From Ectocarpus siliculosus (lineage: Eukaryota > Sar > Phaeophyceae > Ectocarpales > Ectocarpaceae), in the NCBI GenBank assembly GCA_000310025.1, contig FN649728.1, forward strand, positions 1,862,035-1,897,985: 35,951 bases of DNA. Reading direction: 5' to 3'. Position 1 is the first letter of the stretch. Each line of letters starts with the position of its first letter. Below, piece by piece: positions 9,556 through 20,800 of this stretch. The notes under the pieces are model-generated. The model was not told the origin of the DNA. It saw only the letters and a list, made by a program, of their open reading frames with translations, and ran no database searches. A program made the position numbers and the translations under genes.

Positions 9556-12500
9556 TCAGGGGGGCGGGCACCCCTGCGAAAGCGCCCACTCAACAACCTT
9601 GCGGTGCTTGTGGGTAATTGCGCTCTTGATGGTCTGTGAGTCCCAAGGGCAGCCGCAAGAATGCACCCATCGGAGGATGTTGAGGTGCCCTCCCCCCGCG
9701 GCGGCGCTGCAGGTCATCTCGTCCCACGGGCACCCGTGGAGCCTCGCCCACTTTACGATATCCAGATGCCCGTGGAAAGCGGCGGAGGCAGGCGTGCGGT
9801 GGTTCCACAGGCAGTTCTTGGAGCGGAGCCACTTGAGGATGTCCAGGTGCCCCCCCCGGGCGGCCTCTCGGCAAGTATACTCCCCCCACGGGCAGTGGTT
9901 GGCCCTGGCCCACTTCAAAATGTGAAGATGGCCCGCCCTGGCTGCATCTCGGCAAACCTGTCGGGTGGGTTGCGTGCGAAAACAGGAAGGCAAAAAAAAA
10001 ACCGGCATCTAGTATAGTCTCAAAGTTCTGAGAAGGCACCCGCTGGTTCTCCTTTCGGATGAGCAAGTACGGTGAAAGCCACAATGCCTTCCCAAATAAA
10101 AAAAAATTGGGTAGAGGGAAGGGAATAAATCCGACGCATCAAACGGTTCCGAACGGGAAAAATACAGCATTGATTGGCTGGATATCCAGCCATACTTCCC
10201 GTCTCTCGTGGCAACCTGTATTTTTAATATGACGAGTGTTCGAGAGGATCGACCTGGTGAACATATTTCAGGCAGGCTACTTATCACGAACAGGTGGAGA
10301 AAACGAGGGTGAAGAAAGCATGAAGCGTACAGTGAATCATCGTGTGATCGGGGTTTTGCATGTCTCGAATAAAAGACTAGGGAACTATCTCGAAAGGTTG
10401 CCCGTCAGTTCTTAGGATGTGTTTGTCATGACAAACAAATGGCGGGTATGTAGAAACGCGGCGTAAATGCGGGCAGGACCCCATCAATTGCGCACAGTCG
10501 GCATGCCCCCCCACGAGATATACCGTCGGGGTGAGAAAACGCCTGGAACCAAAAGTGAAGACTCGAACAAGGTGTGCTGCACGATACAAATCATTTGGTC
10601 GAGAACTGCTGTCACCCGCCGAAATATCCAGTACACCACCAAGGCGAGGAGACGTGAATATTCGGAGACATCAATGAAGGTTCGACGATCCTTCTCTACG
10701 CAGAAAAACGCATGAAAAAAGAAACTACCACTCGTACGAGTTCGGGTCTGCCTTGCATCAAGCGAATTGTTATGAGGATGTGGAATGCTTGAACCGAAAC
10801 AGTAAGCCGCTAGATCGTTGCAGATACTGTAGAACCCGTCATCATGACAGATCATGACACGCCTCTGAGCGCGTGCGCGTCTTACACGTGTGCGTGGGGG
10901 GAAGCTCTTCGGCCTGATGGTGATGCGTGTCGCATACGACATGGTTAATCGCGCAACACCCATGCATCGGGATCGCCAGAAAACGTCACAACCATAGTCG
11001 CAGCGACCGCCTCGGACGCGAGTTTTGGTGCTACATCACACCCCATCTGATTCCATTGCTTCATACACGTGAATCTGTGGCAACTAGCTCACGAGCAAAG
11101 AGGGGCTTGGAGGCTTGTCGAGTCCTCAAGCAGATTCCCTCCCAACAGAGGGCGGAGCGAGAACTACCAGCATACTCTCCGAATAAAGATACAAAAATAC
11201 ACCCCTTGGCCAAAATACCGTGGATTCCCAACCAATTGTCACCAGTGTGTGTAATATGTGTATGTGGGGTGCAATACTACTTAGCCCTCTTTCTTGATGC
11301 CAGGGAAATCTGTTTGTTCGGGGCTCACATTGACCCGAAAAATACTATTTACCATCGGGTGCGGTTTTCTGCGGGGGTTACGTGATCGTGAGTGAGTGTG
11401 TGCTATCTTGCGTCATATACGGTATCCAAAAGAGATAGGTAGACTAATCCATATCCCCGGCCTCGCTGTGACGACAGCCTGGGTGTGAGTGGGGTGGCTC
11501 AGTGTGCGCCGCGAGGTTGGTTCGGACGAGCAATTGGGAGTTGCGTGCCCGGCTCAAAGTCAAGCGGACTTGCGTCCCACGTCATGCTCGAGAAATGCAC
11601 ACGAGCAAGGACCAAGAGGACAGGAAAAAGTAGACGAACCTCAGAATTCTGGCGCATAGGAGAGGAGAGCGGAAACAATTTTGTGCCTCCGGTAAGAGCC
11701 CTAGACTTCCGATGAGATAACTGCCCTTCCAACCGAGCCCGATCTTTTTCGTTCTACTCCTCCGAACATCCGTCTGACACAGAGACGCTGAAACCTCTGC
11801 CCCTGCGGGAACGTCCGGCGTTCGGTATGCAACCATATTTACAGCATCGGAAGTCTGAAGAGCAAAAATGTCCGTGCTACCCGTCGGCCGGGGGAAAAAC
11901 ATTTTAATCCACCATGCACACCATGATGGACGAAAAAAGGGCGAGGATCAGAACTCTCACTGACATCAATGATATAGGGTATGCGCGGAAAGGCCACCTG
12001 ACATGCAGAATCATTTTCCGTCAAGTAGAGGCCGCAAAAGAAACTAAAATACACATAGCGATACAGGAACCAACGCTCAGCGGTAGATCCCACACAAAAA
12101 AAAAGGTATCACCCACAAATAACCTGCGCTAGACGGTGGCGACGAAAAAAAAAAGGTATCGAACCTCGACCCCTCAAGTACCTTCGGCGGGCCCACCCGT
12201 CCCCTGCAACAACAATCACGCACTTACCGCATCGTCCCACGGACAGTCATTCGCCCGCGCCCACTGCAGGAGCGAGAGGTGGCCCTCCCGAGCCGCCGCG
12301 CGAGTCGTCGAGCTGTCCCACGGGCAGCCGTTCTGTCGCGCCCACTGGAGCACCTCAGAGTGCCCGCCCTCCGCCGCCGCGCGGCACGTCATGTGGTCCC
12401 ACGGGCAGCCCTTCTCCCTGGCCCACTTGAGGATGTGGAGGTGCCCAGACCTGGATGCGAGAGTCGGACGCAAAATGCTCCGCGCGGTTACCATGTCGGG

Positions 12501-13893
12501 AACTTGAGAAACGACTCATCCGCAAACGCGGTGAACGAGACCTTGGTTTCTTTTTGGGTTGCGCTGATATCCACCGGTAAGCGTTCTGTCTCCGGAGTCG
12601 CAACACACAGGGGGGGTGGGGCAGAACAAGCTCTATAAGAAACAAATCAGCAAGCAACCCGCGCCGAAACGCGGCATGTTGACCCCCCTTGCTGTGCTAG
12701 GGCAACAATTTCGCCTTTTCTGTGGTTGTCTGGAAATAGGGGGAGGGGTGGGGGAGTCCGAAGGCGCCCCGGGCCGGGAGTAGTGTGAGAGAGTAAGATC
12801 GGCGGAAGATCGGCCTACGGCGGCGAGCCGTCGTGCTGGCACCTGCCAGAAACAAGGTTCATGCACAGGCGAACGTCCGTTCCCGAAAACAAGACAAGTC
12901 GGGGTAGTTTGACCACCAAGAAATTGTGTTCATCAGAAGTTACTGTTTTCCCGGCACTGAGTGCTTGTTGCCTCGTTAAGAATGCGCCGACCGTAAGGAA
13001 CCTGGGAGCCCAGACCTTGAGGCTAACAGGAAGAAACGATGATAGAAAATTTTGGAACAAGTGCTCACCCACACTCTGCCTCCGATTTTCGTGGTCTCCG
13101 TCAAAATAGTTCTGTCGTGGACACAAGAGCCTAACCTCCAAATCGTCTCATCTCCAAGTAAACACGGGGTTTAATTGGTCGTCGCTCTGTTTGCTGTCAA
13201 CGGGACCTCATGATATCATCGTCGTGCCACCTGTTTTTTGTTGCTCCCCGTATACCTGGCAGCCGACTTGCACGTGTGCGAGGACATGATGCACTTGTTA
13301 TCGTGCGCCCACTGCAGGATCTCCATGTGGCCCGCCCCGGCGGCCATCTGGCACGTCCAGCTGTTCCAGTAGCAGCCGTACGACCGCGCCCACTTGAGCA
13401 TCTCGAAGTGGCCGCCCCTTGCCGCCTGGCTGCACACCATCTTGCTCCAGGCGCAGCCGCTGGTCCGGGCGTGCATGAGCACCTCCAGGTGCCCGTTGGT
13501 GGCCGCCGCGATGCAGGTGCTCCTCCCCCACGGGCATTTGAGCTCCCGGGCGCGCTTGAGGACCTCCAGCTTCCCGAAGCCGGCGATGGCCTCGCACACC
13601 TCGGCGCGCTTCCGCAGACCGCAGGAGAAGCTCCAACACAGCTGGGACGGGGTGACGTGCTCCGTGATCGCCCGGGTGGAGGTCGGGCGGCGCCCCCAGG
13701 CCTCCCGCCAGAGGGTGGACACGCCCGCGAAGAAGAGGTGTTGCTCGTCGTGGACGAAGTCCGCGAGGCAGCGCACGATGTCCACGTTCGCATCGAGGGG
13801 GTTGTCCACGGCGGCGGCAGCGGCGGCGGCAATTGCTACGCCCCCCGCCCTCGGTCTAGCCACCCTGGGTCGCTTGAGGCGGGGTTCCGGCAT
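9556..13893 (-). CDS. CPWD-type ankyrin repeat protein with F-box-like N-terminus (three exons)
   Basis: Minus-strand exons 13893-13256, 12450-12228 and 9957-9556; introns of 805 and 2270 bp. Junctions are GCCAG|GTATAC, ATCCAG|GTCTGG, GCG|GTAAGT and CCGACAG|GTTTGC; phases agree and the product is 420 aa. The start chosen is the ATG at 13893 (MPEPRLKRPRV), a basic, possibly nuclear-targeting N-terminus. Residues about 33-65 (DIVRCLADFVHDEQHLFF, then STLWREAW) resemble an F-box-like helix set. From about residue 105 there are 12 repeats of roughly 26 residues, such as GHLHILKWAREKGCPWD, GHSEVLQWARQNGCPWD and GHLDIVKWARLHGCPWD. They follow the ankyrin pattern with conserved Trp and Cys-Pro-Trp-Asp. 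Repeats 1-4 and 9 vary in CPWD; the last ends CPPP at the stop. Such repeats are common in brown algae and also occur in their large DNA viruses. The role is probably protein binding, perhaps ubiquitin-ligase substrate recognition if the F-box reading is right; that part is inference. Confidence 0.8.
9958..12227 (-). other. Large intron 2 of the ankyrin repeat gene
   Basis: 2270 bp between phase-0 splice sites. It holds no repeat-coding exon that I can see and no recognisable nested gene; open frames inside are short and without motif. Two copies of an A-run followed by GGTATC lie near its 5' (high-coordinate) end at about 12097-12109 and 12147-12160. Confidence 0.6.
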
Positions 13894-14147
13894 ATTCCAG
13901 TGTGCTGGGGTCACAGTAGCAGTAGCGACGCGGCAAGAACAGGGAGGGAGACTTGTCAAGAGGTCTTGGGCGTGCTCACCGTGGTTAGTTAGGCTGTGAC
14001 GTTCTTTCGCCGTACTGGGGAACACTCAGGAAGCATGCCGGAAAGAGAGTGCGTTTGGAGGTGCCAAAAAATCCCGCGTACACGCAGCACCCGGGAACAA
14101 ACTGCACAGCGAAAACCGGAGGAGGTTTCAGAGAGATCGATATACAG

Positions 14148-14211: not shown

Positions 14212-14338
14212 NNNNNNNNNNNNNNNNNNNNNNNNNNNNNNNNNNNNNNNNNNNNNNNNNNNNNNNNNNNNNNNNNNNNNNNNNNNNNNNNNNNNNNNNN
14301 NNNNNNNNNNNNNNNNNNNNNNNNNNNNNNNNNNNNNT

Positions 14339-14422: not shown

Positions 14423-14885
14423 CGGGTTGCTGCATGAGGTCGGATGCTCCACCGTGTCGATTGCCCAACACCACAGATTGGAACGTCACCATGCCGAATT
14501 GTTATTCTGGGCCATACTTGCGTGATGCGCTCGTGCCCCCCCCACGGAAAATAAGTCGTCGACATGACTCATGTCGTGAGAGCATTATGGTCATTCCCTA
14601 GAAACACAATCCGAAGCAGACGACCGGGAAGGTCGTGATCCCCCCAGCGGCAAGACATCGTAGACAGAAATTCTGGGTCGCACAACACCCGTAGGTGAAG
14701 AATAGCACCCACAAGAGACGCGGAAAAAAAGGGGGGGGGGGGGTAGGCTCTGAGCCTGCCAACGAGATGGAGAGAAGCCAACTGCGTGGTACGGCATGCT
14801 GAGGATACCGTTGCCAGGTGTTCTCAGACTGAATGGCCTTGCTCCCAGCATATTTACCTTGAAATTGGCGCCTGCTGGGAGGCGG

Positions 14886-15165
14886 TAATCGGTAAAATTA
14901 GACCATCCGGCTAGTCAGCGCTGACTCAGTGGTCTAATTAATGGTCAAAGCGTTTGTAACAAAAGATATACTCTCGGCTCGTTGCCATCCAGCTGGTCAC
15001 TGTGACATTTGGAAGTAGGGATCTCCGGGGACGGACCCCTCGCCAGGCGCTGCCGGAAAAAGAACTAATGGTGCTTGTGAAAGTGACCAGCTGGGATTCG
15101 AACCCGTGCGTGGAACCTTGTGTAAGAACGCTTTGACCATAAGACCACTGAGCCAACGCTGACTA
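14886..15165 (-). repeat. tRNA-like foldback element, copy 1
   Basis: On the minus strand TGGCTCAGTGG (15145-15155) fits RNA polymerase III box A and GGTTCGAATCC (15094-15104) fits box B, in tRNA-like order and spacing. The box A half (about 15119-15165) is repeated in inverse orientation at about 14913-14960, so the element can fold on itself. An inner inverted repeat (CCAGCTGGTCAC at about 14989-15000 and GTGACCAGCTGG at about 15083-15094) encloses a GC-rich core with GGATCTCCGGGGACGGACCC. This is most simply a tRNA-derived SINE-like unit with inverted ends. Copy 3 shares about 155 bases of the body. Confidence 0.7.
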
Positions 15166-15463
15166 CAGCGTTGACTAGCCGGATGGTCTAGTTCCGCGAT
15201 TAAAGGATACCCGCACGAGTTCGAATACCGGCCGGATCACTTTTCTCTGCGTAAAAATTACCATTGACTGAGCAGCCGCGTTTGGCGAGGGGTCCGTCCC
15301 CGGAGATCTCTACTCTCAATCCCAGTGATTAAGCTACGAACAGCCTCAAGCCCATGTGATCCGGCCGGGCGCTAACGAGCTCAGAGCATATATTTTAATC
15401 GGTAAAATTAGACCATCCGGCTAGTCAGCGCTGACTAGCCGGATGGTCTAATTTTACCGATTA
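15166..15463 (+). repeat. tRNA-like foldback element, copy 2 (opposite orientation)
   Basis: It starts head-to-head with copy 1. On the plus strand TGACTAGCCGGATGG is box A-like and AGTTCGAATACC (15218-15229) is box B-like. The body contains the same GGGGTCCGTCCCCGGAGATC core as copies 1 and 3 but on the other strand (about 15290-15310). GGCCGGATCAC (about 15230-15240) has its inverse GTGATCCGGCC at about 15355-15365. The unit closes with an inverted copy of its box A half, which merges into the 68 bp palindrome at 15396-15463. Confidence 0.65.
15396..15463. repeat. Perfect 68 bp palindrome
   Basis: The two 34-base halves are exact reverse complements with no spacer; the centre is AGTCAGC|GCTGACT between 15429 and 15430. 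Each half reads outward as a tRNA-like 5' half (GCTGACTAGCCGGATGGTCT and onward). The left half is also present unchanged at 14886-14919. Confidence 0.95.
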
Positions 15464-16601
15464 GGGGGTACGAATAGATAAGGGCTTCTGCGGTTGGCTA
15501 CCATATCTGCTTCTGAGCTTGACCCGTGTCATAGGGTGAGACACGGCCACAGTGGCGCTCGTTTCGCGATACAGTGGTGCCGTGGTCACCTCGAGAATCT
15601 CATCACGACGGTACTAGATGTACACCAGTATCTACAAACACACGCGCGGCTCGACGGGTACCTCATGCTCTCTCTCTCTCTATGTAGGTCAACTTCGAGC
15701 TCGATTTGTAGACTGCAGCTACAGTGTAGTACATGTAGTGTGCCGCGAGCAGAGACGACTCTGAGTGTCTCCTCTACAACACACAACAGGCAAGCATGCC
15801 TGTGTCCAAGTTGTATCAAGGTTTGGGATCACGTCGATAAGGTCAGGATTAGGTTCGTGCATGTATCTATATGTGAAAGGAATCACAGGAGAAAAACGGT
15901 GCTGCCTTTTGGAAGCAGCTCGTGACGCCTCCCTTTTTGAGATGATGGCGTGCTGCGGAAGACTGCCGCCAGTACTGCTGTAGCCCTACTGCTGTAGATA
16001 CCAACCACCCGAGAAGAGTAGCAGCAGCTGCCACTGCTCCTCCCGCTACGGTGTGTTCTTTTCCCCGCCGTGATAATCAGATCTGAACCCAGGGGTACAA
16101 CACGGTTTTGCCGATGCGTACGGTGCGAGGGGTTCAACAACGAGAGCTTTGAAGGCTGATTATGTGTGTGGTATACGATCCAAATAATGCGAGTAGACTC
16201 CTCGCCGCAATCATACCTGTCTGGCAGTTTCAAGGTCGGTCCTAGTGGGATAAGAAGTGAGTCGCAAGGCAGCGCAGATAGTACGGCTATAGAGCGACAG
16301 CGTAGCAGCGTAGTATGATAAATCGGCGGTCGTCGGAGAGATTCACAAGGGTTTCGAGAAGTTGCGAGGCATTTCTTGCGGCGGTTTCGTCTCGTACGAC
16401 ACACACACGAGCGGCGAGCAGCGAGCTCCGTGCGTTTGCTCCTGTAAGTGTATCTGTCCATCGCTTTTACCTCTGGGTGCTGTGAGAATGAAACAGCCAC
16501 CGGAATCGAAGTGCAAGCACAGTAGCCCCTCCCGCCCTATCACTGTAGTACGTACGCGTATCTATCTTGACATAAATCTTGACGTGTACGATATCCCGAA
16601 T

Positions 16602-16673
16602 GTTAGAAAGGCTTACCCATTAGACTACTCAGTCAGCGCTGACTGAGTAGTCTAATGGGTAAGCCTTTCTAAC
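16602..16673. repeat. Perfect 72 bp palindrome
   Basis: Two exact 36-base inverse halves meet without spacer at 16637/16638 in the same AGTCAGC|GCTGACT centre as the 68 bp palindrome, but the arms differ in sequence (GCTGACTGAGTAGTCTAATG and onward). The right half recurs as a direct copy at about 16845-16880. Confidence 0.95.
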
Positions 16674-16880
16674 AAAAGATATACTCTCGGCTCGTTGCCA
16701 CCCAGCTGGTCACTGTGATATTTACAGGTAGGGATCTCCGGGGACGGACCCCTCGCCAGGCGCTGCCGGAAAAAGAACTAATGGTGCTTGTGAAAGTGAC
16801 CAGCCGGGATTCGAACCCGTGCGTGTATCCTTTGTTCAGTCAGCGCTGACTGAGTAGTCTAATGGGTAAGCCTTTCTAAC
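16638..16880 (-). repeat. tRNA-like foldback element, copy 3
   Basis: Bases 16670-16826 match 14957-15112 of copy 1 closely (body, inner inverted repeat and box B GGTTCGAATCC at 16807-16817 on the minus strand). The expected inverted box A half next to box B is missing. A shortened AGTCAGCGCTGACT junction and a direct copy of the left arm (to 16880) lie there instead, so this copy looks rearranged. Confidence 0.7.
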
Positions 16881-17815
16881 ACCGAAAGTAGTTGGACGAT
16901 TCACTAAACGTTTTAGGCCTACATACAGTGTAGTATTGAGCGCAGCAGCAGCCGTTCCCATCATCTCAAACCCTGTGACGTGGAAAAACTCCGCTGGGCT
17001 ATACAACCATCGCTCTGATTTGAGAAGCCATAGTGAAAGCTTGCTGACTATGTAGTTCGATCTACTGTACACTGACTCAACCGGGTCGGGCAAGAAAGGG
17101 GCCCGAGAGAGATAGAACTCCGGATGCAGACCCGGAACGATATGGCTGGCTGGGGTATCAGAACGGGGGCGACTGCCTGCACCAAAACACACAACCGTTG
17201 CATCTTGTTGTTGTGGAATTGAGGAATGGTATGACTTTGGGGCGCTCTCTCGGATTTTGGCTGTCACCGTGACTTGGGGTGCCCAGCAGCATACTGGCTC
17301 CCGCAACTGGGCCGTTCGTGCCAGTACACTGAGTCGTGTGCAGATACACACACCAGAGACTAAACAAAAAAGCCAGGCGTGCCCGCTGTAGCACCGTACC
17401 CGCAGGAGCTCCCAAAGGCCCAAATATCTGACCGAGGTACTTGAATTTTGGAAGTACCGAGCCAAATCTCTCTCGACCGCTAGTGTAACGGCTTTCCGGA
17501 TGATGAGTCGGTCGACATCAAATACTCTCTTTTACACCTGGTACCAAGCTTGCAGCAAATACAACACCAAGCGAAAGCTTCTCCTCAACCCAAGACAGAA
17601 AAAACCACACAAACAGCAAAGCACATTTCTATAATACCGCGGATAACACAACGCGGGCCCAAAATCTTGGCGTGCTGGCACGCCTCACTATCACGAGCCG
17701 CTCGCAAACTGTGGTCTGAGGGGGACGCACACATTCAAGCAGCGATTGATTGTGCGTCAGTGCACCTGCACGTACACAAGCCCCGCGTTTTTCCACCGCC
17801 GCCAGGCAATTCATT

Positions 17816-20800
17816 TCAAAGCACATTCCAGTCCACGCCGCCGTGTCCAAGCTCTTCGAGGGCATCGTTGGCCTTCTTGAAGCACTCCGATCCGATGAAC
17901 GGGTCCGGCTTCCTCGTGGCCGAGAGGGGGGAAGGGTGCGCGCACGTGATAACGCGGTGCTTGGACGAGTCTATCAGCGCACCCTTTTTCTGCGATCGAC
18001 AGGGGGGGGAAGGGAGGCAGCGAGAGAAAAGCAGGAACACAGACAGAATGACAAAGACGGACAGAATTAGAGACACGAATGACAGGCAGACAGACAAACA
18101 GGGATGCAGGCAGACAAACAGACAGACAGATAAGACAGCAAACACAATACACGGAAGCCGAAAGGGTGGGTGGAGGTGACTTGGATCCGCGGCATCTCTG
18201 ACGACTCTTCTCGGTGCAGTGTGGAGTGGGGGAGGGGAAGGGATCACCAGAGGGCGGCCATTTCTGCAAATAGTGGCAGGCTGATCTTCCAACACCTCCG
18301 GGTTTAAACCCTGCACGAGCACAGGGGAAGACACTGTACTTTCGAGCGAAAAAAACTAACACCGGCTGACACGGCCGCCGTACATGAGGCTTTCGAAAGG
18401 CCGAACAAACTAGCAGTTTGCCAGCCACGGATCTACCGGTAAGACGCGATTGACATTGTCGGCCTCGTGGGGAGCAGAGTCGCACCCGGGAAGGCTGACC
18501 CCAAAAGAGGGAAGAACAACCACCACTATCCCGGTCTTCAACACAAACGAAACACTAGGTGACAGCGGCGTTAGGCTTGTGCAAAAATGCCTAGATGTAG
18601 AAGCCGAAATCAAACCATTAGACCTGACGAGTCTACCGGGTCAATTTCGGCTTCTTAGACCAAGTAAGCACAGCACCAACTTCTACGAGACCCGGCTTCG
18701 GAAGCAAGCGCCCACCTGGGAAGGCTTTCCCCACAGGAGGAAGACCAACCGCCGATCACCCTTGTTCAGCTCCCGCACCACCGCGTCCGTAAACTTTTCC
18801 CACCTGGCGGGTCCAAGATATGTCCCGAATCCATCGAGAGCGAATAAGAAAGTTTGGAGTTCGTGCAAATGGACCCGGTTGTTTCATGCGTGGTGCTTCT
18901 TGTCTCATGGGGCGCGCTAACCAGCAATCGACCCGATTTCGTGGCGGGAGAACGAAGGAAAATTGAGAAGAGGCGGGTACAACGGACGGGGAACATCCTC
19001 GCGAACCGCATCGAGGACAAAGACGCCAACACGAAGGCCACGCCGACGATGTAGAAGAAGATAGGATTGTGCGAAGCAACGAGCAGTTGTTCCTCAAGCG
19101 CACCCTTGGTTCTTGTGCGAGTTAGCCTTGGACCTCTCGACGCTCAGAACCGTGTTGAGCAGCAGGACCCCCTGGCTGCACCAGCTGTCCAGGTTCCCGG
19201 ACTTGGTGGGCGTGATGCCGCAGCAGCTCTAAGCGGACAACACAAAAACGGCATCGAAGGGGTGTGGGTGTGATTGTTTTACGTTGAGTCGCTGAAGAAA
19301 GGGAACATCGATCTAGATCAGCCACCTTCACCACCGCAAATTCCGGCTCTCGGATTTCCCTTTCAGCTCCACTCACATGCGCAAGCACGCGGTCGGCAGC
19401 AGCTCGCCACGTCAGGAGCCTCTCCAAAATCGTCCAATAACAGGTGTGTGTTCTGTTCGTTGGAAAACACGCAGTAACTCTACCACAGCACGGGCGTCGA
19501 AATTCAAACGCAGCCCAAGCCTCTACAAAAAAAACAACTTTGTAGTTTACTCACCACGGCCTCCTTGACCATGTTCCGCAGGCTTGGCGGTTGCATGACC
19601 CCCTTCATCACCGAGAAAGCCAGGCCGTGCGCCTGCCCGGGCTGGTGGTAAGGGTCCTGCCCCAAGATTACCACCTGTGTGCCCCCCCACACCCCACCGT
19701 CATCGCCACCCGCCGTCAAAAGAAGGACAACAAGAGAGCGGCACCGGGCAGAACGAATCACACAGCCAAAAATGAAAACAATGAGTTGCGAAACGATCAA
19801 AACGTGCTGTCGAGTCATGTGGTCGGTATGTAGGTGAAGGCAGCATCGGCGATAAAAGTGTCTTGCACAAAAACACGTTAGTCGAAAATTCGCGACAACA
19901 AGATGGCAAATCACAGGTGCAAAATAAACACTCGCCATGCGGCCAAGTCACGCAAGCGCCTACTTTTGGTTTACTTTTTCTCGCCTTCCTGGGTCTTTTC
20001 CGTACCATAATTCAAAGGCCCACTTGATCAACACGCAGACAACCATACTCCCCTCGAACAGCATCTAAAACGGCATGGTCCACAGGGTACCGCCGAAGAC
20101 TCTTTCAAGAAAATCGCTCAGGAAATCGAGGTGATCGTGGGCTGAACCTCGGCCTCGGCGCACTGGGCCGTACACAACAACCAACGTCATGTACTGCCAA
20201 AATCGCCATCCCCAAATTTTATGCTTCGACGCGACCGCGTGATGAACAGACGTGGCCGGTCCGCACCTTGACGTTACTCAGCGGGCATGAATCGAAGGCG
20301 TTGAACAGCTTGTCCCTCGGCGGGTAGATGACCTTCGAGGCGTACTGCTTGTCCAGGAACGCCTGTAGACGGCCGAAGTACGGCTTGGTAGTCTCCCCCG
20401 ACAGCGCCGTCGCCCACCCATCTTCCTTGATAGGCGAGCCTGCAAGTCCGAGGTTAAGGTAGAACGGCTTTGGCTTTACAGCTGGAGGGCTACGACAATG
20501 TTCGTTTTGTACGAGGCTTACCAACATCATTCAAATCAACACGGGGTGTATTGTAGGGCCGGGCATGAGGACTATTGACATGTTGCTCGTTCTCCTTTTC
20601 TTGTCGGTAAACAGCAAACGCTGTTTGTGGGTGCCCCCACGCCTTTTGTGCAGTTGGAAAGGTGGTAGTCCATTCTAAAATACTTCGTAACGGCTGTGTG
20701 CATCGCGATTCATGACGCAATGTCGTTGAATACCACCCCCCAAAGTTACGCTGTAACCTGGTCGATCCTGTCACACAGGAGATCGGTTCCAATGCTGCCG

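Follow-up and report, generated by a model that had tools for sequence, protein, structure and literature searches.

Several kinds of short mobile element invite comparison with the elements described here. tRNA-derived SINEs carry a box A and a box B, and are without palindromic ends or target duplications fixed at 5 bp; Cassandra TRIMs have direct LTRs; and MITEs and foldback DNA transposons such as Galileo are non-coding, with inverted ends, hairpins, deletion derivatives, movement in trans and nested composites. Long perfect palindromes are usually unstable. The closest known kind is TRIMp3/Helenus: in the accessible part of Kojima (2024, PMC10886601), Helenus elements are short (311-1263 bp) and have tRNA-like boxes in their LTRs, they generate 5-bp duplications in fungi and plants, and the primers of the fungal elements are of the anticodon-loop type. 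The same part of that source reports them from fungi, animals and one plant, and a word search of it returned neither brown algae nor Ectocarpus. For Ectocarpus, the accessible part of a 2025 transposon survey (PMC12477816) gives 35 Copia and 32 Gypsy families; a word search of its main text returned no word that starts with palindrom-, tRNA or foldback, and the one possible SINE named there is of another kind; the 94 unknown and 51 unclassified DNA families of the survey could include the elements considered here. In the open-licence literature searched, no description of palindrome-ended pol III elements was found.

The window analysed here is a 35,951-nucleotide stretch of the Ectocarpus siliculosus genome (contig FN649728.1, positions 1,862,035 to 1,897,985), and the cluster within it at 14886-16880 proved to be two insertions, i.e., a nested A/B/A composite and a single C unit. 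The three related units with inverted ends that the initial annotation had described were recovered when the sequence was inspected directly and searched for repeats. The first two make up the composite (14886-15463, 578 bp, in the order A1 arm, B unit, A unit, A1 arm), whose ends are outer palindrome ends (TAATCG..CGATTA) and whose flanks, GGCGG at 14881-14885 and GGGGG at 15464-15468, agree at 4/5 bases and are possibly a 5-bp duplication. The third unit belongs to a separate element, C (16601-16881, 281 bp), with a 5-bp target site duplication of its own, CCGAA, at 16596-16600 and 16882-16886. The composite opens with a 34-bp outer A1 arm (14886-14919) that meets unit B (14920-15166, minus strand, head towards 15166) at a chimeric A1/B junction; unit B meets unit A (15167-15429, plus strand, head at left) head to head, the boundaries of both units being approximate, and a perfect 68-bp terminal palindrome of A1 arms (15396-15463) closes the element. 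Element C begins with a perfect 74-bp terminal palindrome (16601-16674, arms TGTTAG..CTAACA), continues through unit C (16638-16844, minus strand, head towards 16844) and ends in a right terminal palindrome with its inner arm mostly deleted (16836-16881). Perfect palindromes of 68 and 72 bp had been claimed; both are perfect and the first length was right, the second being 74 bp. On folding, single strands of the units, A and B included, form long imperfect hairpins.

Repeat searches and inspection located the exact 14-bp centre, AGTCAGCGCTGACT, four times in the cluster, i.e., at the A1/B junction (14913-14926), in the 68-bp palindrome (15423-15436), in the 74-bp palindrome (16631-16644) and in the right palindrome of element C (16838-16851); a fifth junction, between units B and A (15155-15172), has the variant sequence AACGCTGACTACAGCGTT. 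With three arm types and four exact centres, the earlier observation that arms differ around a constant centre holds. A GC-rich core, GGCGAGGGGTCCGTCCCCGGAGATC, is common to the three units (15020-15044, minus; 15284-15308, plus; 16733-16757, minus), that of the second copy lying on the other strand, just as had been noted. The box B attributed to every unit is exact, GGTTCGAATCC, in units 1 and 3 (15094-15104 and 16807-16817, both minus), and unit 2 has merely a similar motif, GAGTTCGAATACC, followed by TTTT (15217-15229, plus). A solo palindrome of the F family, decayed and with its centre lost, lies 1.7 kb downstream of the cluster (18594-18657). Two further observations concern the surroundings: an N run within a GA microsatellite at about 14212-14337 is an assembly gap close to the cluster, and the ORFs at 9556-10008 and 13216-14025 (-) repeat GHLEVLKWAR..GCPW-like motifs that by eye are ankyrin-like.

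The genome searched comprised 189 Mb in 492 contigs. A search for the EsV-1-7 family gave 880 candidates and 150 scored matches in it, vs none in 14 control genomes, which, taken with the genome size, is consistent with a brown alga such as Ectocarpus. The exact centre was present at 318 places, vs 0 for its reversed control and about 0.7 expected in random sequence, and with one mismatch the whole-genome count was 582 places vs 9 for the reversed control. The family is dispersed, as had been proposed, and the cluster is not the only copy. At least six types of outer arm were distinguished across the genome copies: 18 bases of the outer arm of C had 56 exact matches, 21 bases of the D arm matched at 255 places and 23 bases of the F arm at 218 (both at one mismatch or fewer), and the reversed controls each gave 0. 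Arms are 34-40 bases long. Their outer termini vary (TGTT, TAAT, TATA, TATT), starting with TG in families C, D and E and with TA in A, F and G, and their inner end, AGTCAGC, is constant, an outcome favoured by a choice of loci made partly on inner sequence. Among the loci examined, no outer end flanked by a duplication belonged to family B. The core that follows an arm usually starts AAA, AAGG, CAAG or GAGG, a rule that marks 93/172 arm ends as core-abutting. The composite of the window also recurs: six further loci match 429-475 bases of it, spanning both units, and in the one displayed in full (C18_4167552) the B and A heads lie head to head as they do in the window. A locus unlike the other families is L035 (1440-1600), in which F-type half palindromes occur in a 60-bp direct repeat with A-rich linkers.

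The relationship between the two arms of a palindrome was surveyed at 87 exact centres for which 45 bases or more were available to either side, A1 and A2 being counted apart; these loci were picked by similarity, contig order or choice from lists, and so form a non-random sample of the 318. Arms of the same family flanked 53 of the 87 centres, vs 10.4 ± 2.9 on shuffling (maximum 20 in 2,000 shuffles). The others comprised five A1+A2 joins, ten centres uniting arms of different families, which upholds the suggestion that units join exactly at the 14-bp centre, and 19 with at least one unclassified arm. In permutation tests, the arms within a palindrome agreed better with each other than with the arms of sister copies in families C (p 0.002), D (0.008), A2 (0.021) and E (0.032), and A1 and F stayed within the permutation range (p 0.19 and 0.35). 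In four of the six families tested, therefore, the arms covary around an unchanging centre, and the covariation whose absence would have spoken against a family was found.

What had not been foreseen in the initial annotation is that these elements insert in the manner of transposons, with 5-bp duplications at the outer palindrome ends and empty sites elsewhere. A fixed rule, requiring that no core sequence abut either end, selected 20 elements for the duplication test. An exact 5-bp duplication was present in 12/20, and a further three matched at four of five bases; exact flank matches at 3, 4 or 6-9 bases occurred in 0/20 and at 2 bases in 4/20, and shuffled pairing of flanks gave a mean of 0.6 exact 5-bp matches, with a maximum of 5 in 5,000 shuffles. 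Among the five misses, C17 and C9 were paired wrongly under the rule (AGAGA is present twice at the outer ends of C17), and the duplication was absent from the three that were correctly paired, namely the D/F chimera C26, the F solo C2_3834792 and C3_4482638. All three solo C palindromes fetched as suspected solos are complete elements of 74-76 bp with exact duplications (TCAAC, ACGGA and CGTTC), and are counted among the 12. Outside the rule, exact duplications picked by eye flank C23 (GCGCA), C456_845840 (GGGTG), C13 (AAGTC), C3_6559941 (TATGC) and C16_3123882 (GGTTG), and none was seen at the one-ended copies C67, C10 and C22. In addition, two internally deleted copies have about six terminal bases left at one end and retain an exact duplication; the deletion in such copies may have followed insertion. 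Two suspected D solos, C217 and C242, were rejected for having core on one side.

Empty sites were sought for 15 insertions by joining the flanks over one copy of the duplication, and 40 matches were scored among 233 candidates. Among those scored, at least three of the 15 insertions have empty sites elsewhere: C367 has at least eight at full length (96-99%) plus one shorter, the 874-bp composite C33_678122 has at least 25 (89-98%, two slightly short), and C3_6298453 has at least six (88-90%). In most rows the query and the match span the same length, so that these sites are empty and contain the 5 bases once. C93 is embedded in a minisatellite, and the adjoining repeat unit, by eye, is its empty form with a single GGCCA. 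As an observation in its own right, the C elements at L064 (C22_1944321) and L056 (C45_361209) are followed by similar flanks, AGACTTCTTC.CATGAA, possibly a shared target repeat, and at L064 the C element is separated from that flank by 14 T in a row. The elements, then, are dispersed insertions at many sites, bounded by 5-bp duplications at their outer palindrome ends, and the forms so bounded comprise solos, single units and composites, with inter-family joints at the centre.

These results bear directly on whether the structures are false head-to-head joins made during assembly, of which perfect palindromes are classic chimera signatures. At C53 the flanks are inverted too (97887-97987), as such joins would have it; however, false joins would hardly yield arms specific to each family, at hundreds of loci, together with 5-bp duplications and empty sites, and we regard an artefact as scarcely credible. 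The C53 locus (L101, L102) deserves mention for itself: the sole fully free D palindrome inspected (C53:97899) has no 5-bp duplication and has inverted flanks instead, the perfect inversion running at least 12 bases past the palindrome, which would be either an inverted duplication about the axis of the element or an assembly error.

The promoter boxes were counted on 204 sides of centres, one mismatch in the centre being allowed. A box A at one mismatch or fewer lay 4-15 bases from the axis on 160/204 sides, 72 of them exact, and four control windows gave 20-24 sides (1-3 exact). A box B at one mismatch or fewer lay 40-74 bases out on 10/204 sides vs 0-1 in five control windows, and at two mismatches on 28 sides vs 4-10 in controls. 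In the units displayed, the opposite arm has no box B at the matching place; the terminal repeat holds box A, and box B is outside the repeat on one side only. Conservation of box B among copies ranked 3/236 windows in B, 66/254 in A and 36/189 in C; it had looked better against flanks alone, and as proof of function was dropped given the ordinary ranks in A and C. By eye, TTTT follows the tRNA-like part in 10/11 A heads, and internal T-runs accompany 15/28 box-B matches vs a background of 28%, some of the 28 being chance matches; T-runs as proof against a full-length pol III RNA were likewise dropped, being clear in A heads only.

ARAGORN (bacterial code) found 0 tRNAs in the window and 26 loci, the Rfam tRNA model RF00005 had no match at E<=5 in 14860-16900, and Rfam at its gathering threshold had none. 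Relaxed Rfam searches returned nine matches, mostly miRNA-precursor hairpins on palindromes and all below gathering scores, which were taken as generic hairpins. Because neither ARAGORN nor RF00005 detected a tRNA, the label "tRNA-like" of the initial annotation stands for the promoter boxes and not for a cloverleaf. That the elements are ordinary tRNA-derived SINEs moved by LINEs, in inverted order by chance, would account for the tRNA-like distance between box A and box B and for the one-ended copy C22, which ends in 14 T, but not for exact duplications of fixed 5-bp length, nor for palindromic ends on both sides without a tail in the 12 elements displayed, and it sits poorly with the lack of a tRNA match; we hold it to be very improbable.

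The reading we favour, with a probability of roughly 0.45, is that the elements are of a foldback, non-autonomous kind and that a DDE/integrase-type enzyme moves them in trans through a DNA route. The minimal element would be two 34-40 bp ends back to back, i.e., a palindrome, and larger elements would hold one or more hairpin-folding units between such ends. The enzyme, acting in trans on a double-stranded DNA copy with inverted ends in the style of MITEs and foldback elements, would join the outer ends to the target with a 5-bp stagger; fold-back repair would keep both arms of a palindrome alike, and the 14-bp centre would serve as the joint for new units. On one side only, the head with box A and box B might be transcribed by pol III into a short RNA. 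The elements do have terminal inverted repeats, the outer arms being inverted at both ends. In the window composite, C11, C33_678122 and C23, the outer arms match while the inner arms differ, and C33_678122 and C23_2424362 have outer arms that differ from their inner arms and are arranged inverted at both ends. When the ends of the 20 elements were compared, inverted matches were better in eight, direct matches in one, and 11 were tied; for ends with an exact or 4-of-5 duplication, two favoured an inverted match (C33_678122, C23), two a direct one (C3_6298453, at 52 direct vs 48 inverted, and C27, ahead by one base of 22) and eight tied.

Several points were weighed against movement of DNA by such an enzyme. 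A pure DNA route leaves nothing for the pol III boxes to do, which was counted against it, and the bases common to the families sit on the inner side of the arm, whereas a transposase would cut at the outer terminus. To our knowledge, the DNA superfamilies listed for Ectocarpus do not typically generate duplications of 5 bp, and we know of no DNA transposon superfamily with a 5-bp duplication plus T(G/A) ends. As for an autonomous partner, or a transposase gene with such ends, no clear pair at coding length was found in the 56 C places, in 100 listed of the 255 D places or in 100 listed of the 218 F places. Two wide spacings were observed separately: two D palindromes lie 11.3 kb apart at C2:8450851-8462197 (L099, L100, L105, L106), with outer flanks GTTCA and GCTCA that are 4/5 alike, and are two elements or one long one, and two inward-facing F arms lie 5.5 kb apart at C6:3785858-3791365, again as separate elements or one long one.

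A retroelement origin was considered in two forms. In the first, the elements would be miniature LTR-type retroelements of the TRIMp3/Helenus sort, copied by reverse transcription and integrated by an enzyme of the Copia integrase type, with the tRNA-like pol III promoter in the terminal repeat, the palindromes as LTRs and the solos as solo LTRs. The 5-bp duplications fit, as do the TG..CA ends of families C, D and E, a box A in the repeat with box B outside it, solo repeats with duplications, copies with up to eight arms and the better direct match of the C3_6298453 ends (52 vs 48); Copia and Gypsy families are, moreover, reported from Ectocarpus in the accessible part of the survey (PMC12477816). 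However, in five elements a TGG-type primer site was not found just inside the ends, and by eye no purine tract was seen within 20 bases inside either end. The repeat, in addition, has box A only, with box B outside it on one side, the TTTT of 10/11 A heads would stop pol III, the ends of C33_678122 and C23 are inverted and not direct, and those of A, F and G are TA..TA. We consider this origin doubtful, though it deserves serious thought.

In the second form, a pol III transcript started at the centre would fold back, and its 5' arm would prime reverse transcription on the complementary arm; the hairpin cDNA would then be inserted by a borrowed LTR-type integrase. The palindrome would act as both promoter and primer and be rebuilt in every round, and the self-complementary 14-bp centre would let unrelated units join as composites, so that the elements would be a distinct class of mobile element. 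Consistent with self-priming are the arm length of 34-40 nt, to which 5' tRNA halves are similar, and the ending of the arms at the core start (with the break between ..CTTT and T.. or between ..A and AAAG..), together with arms of one palindrome that copy each other in 4/6 families and a box A that is 4-15 nt from the centre on 160/204 sides at one mismatch or fewer. In chimeras (the window composite, C11 and C33_678122), on the other hand, the outer arm is no copy of the inner arm, and runs of four T occur within A units; a self-primed route seems unlikely.

Whichever enzyme moves them, the centre is fixed in hundreds of palindromes here even as the two arms vary in concert, and an inserted element can consist of a 74-bp palindrome and nothing else. 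Should the pol III boxes prove functional, the palindromic type would join the few elements that pair a pol III promoter with integrase-type insertion, and the 14-bp joint between different units offers a testable system for template switching at palindromes.

Set beside the known systems, the alga's elements resemble tRNA-derived SINEs in their box A and box B, and differ from them in having no recognisable tRNA head, duplications fixed at 5 bp and no tail in 12 elements, although the one-ended C22 ends in T14. With MITEs and Galileo they share non-coding copies, inverted ends, hairpins, nested composites and deletion derivatives, and, like MITEs and foldback elements, they show a target duplication of fixed length and empty sites; in contrast, their ends hold pol III boxes, and it is the inner rather than the outer end that is conserved. 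The Cassandra TRIM, in the accessible part of its description, is likewise non-autonomous, with a pol III promoter in its terminal repeats and tandem arrays, but its promoter is of the 5S type, not tRNA-like. The likeness to TRIMp3/Helenus, again by the accessible part of its source (PMC10886601), extends to small size and a lack of autonomy, to terminal repeats that hold a tRNA-like pol III promoter, to solo repeats and tandem copies, and to a tRNA identity that is mostly lost with the boxes kept. In the alga's elements, on the other hand, the terminal repeat is palindromic around a constant 14-bp centre and contains box A only, the ends can match inverted, and neither a 3'-tRNA-type primer site nor a purine tract was found in five elements. 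Since box B lies outside the repeat, and neither the purine tract nor the primer site was found, we have not filed the elements under TRIMp3/Helenus, the kind that is nonetheless closest to them and that may work similarly.
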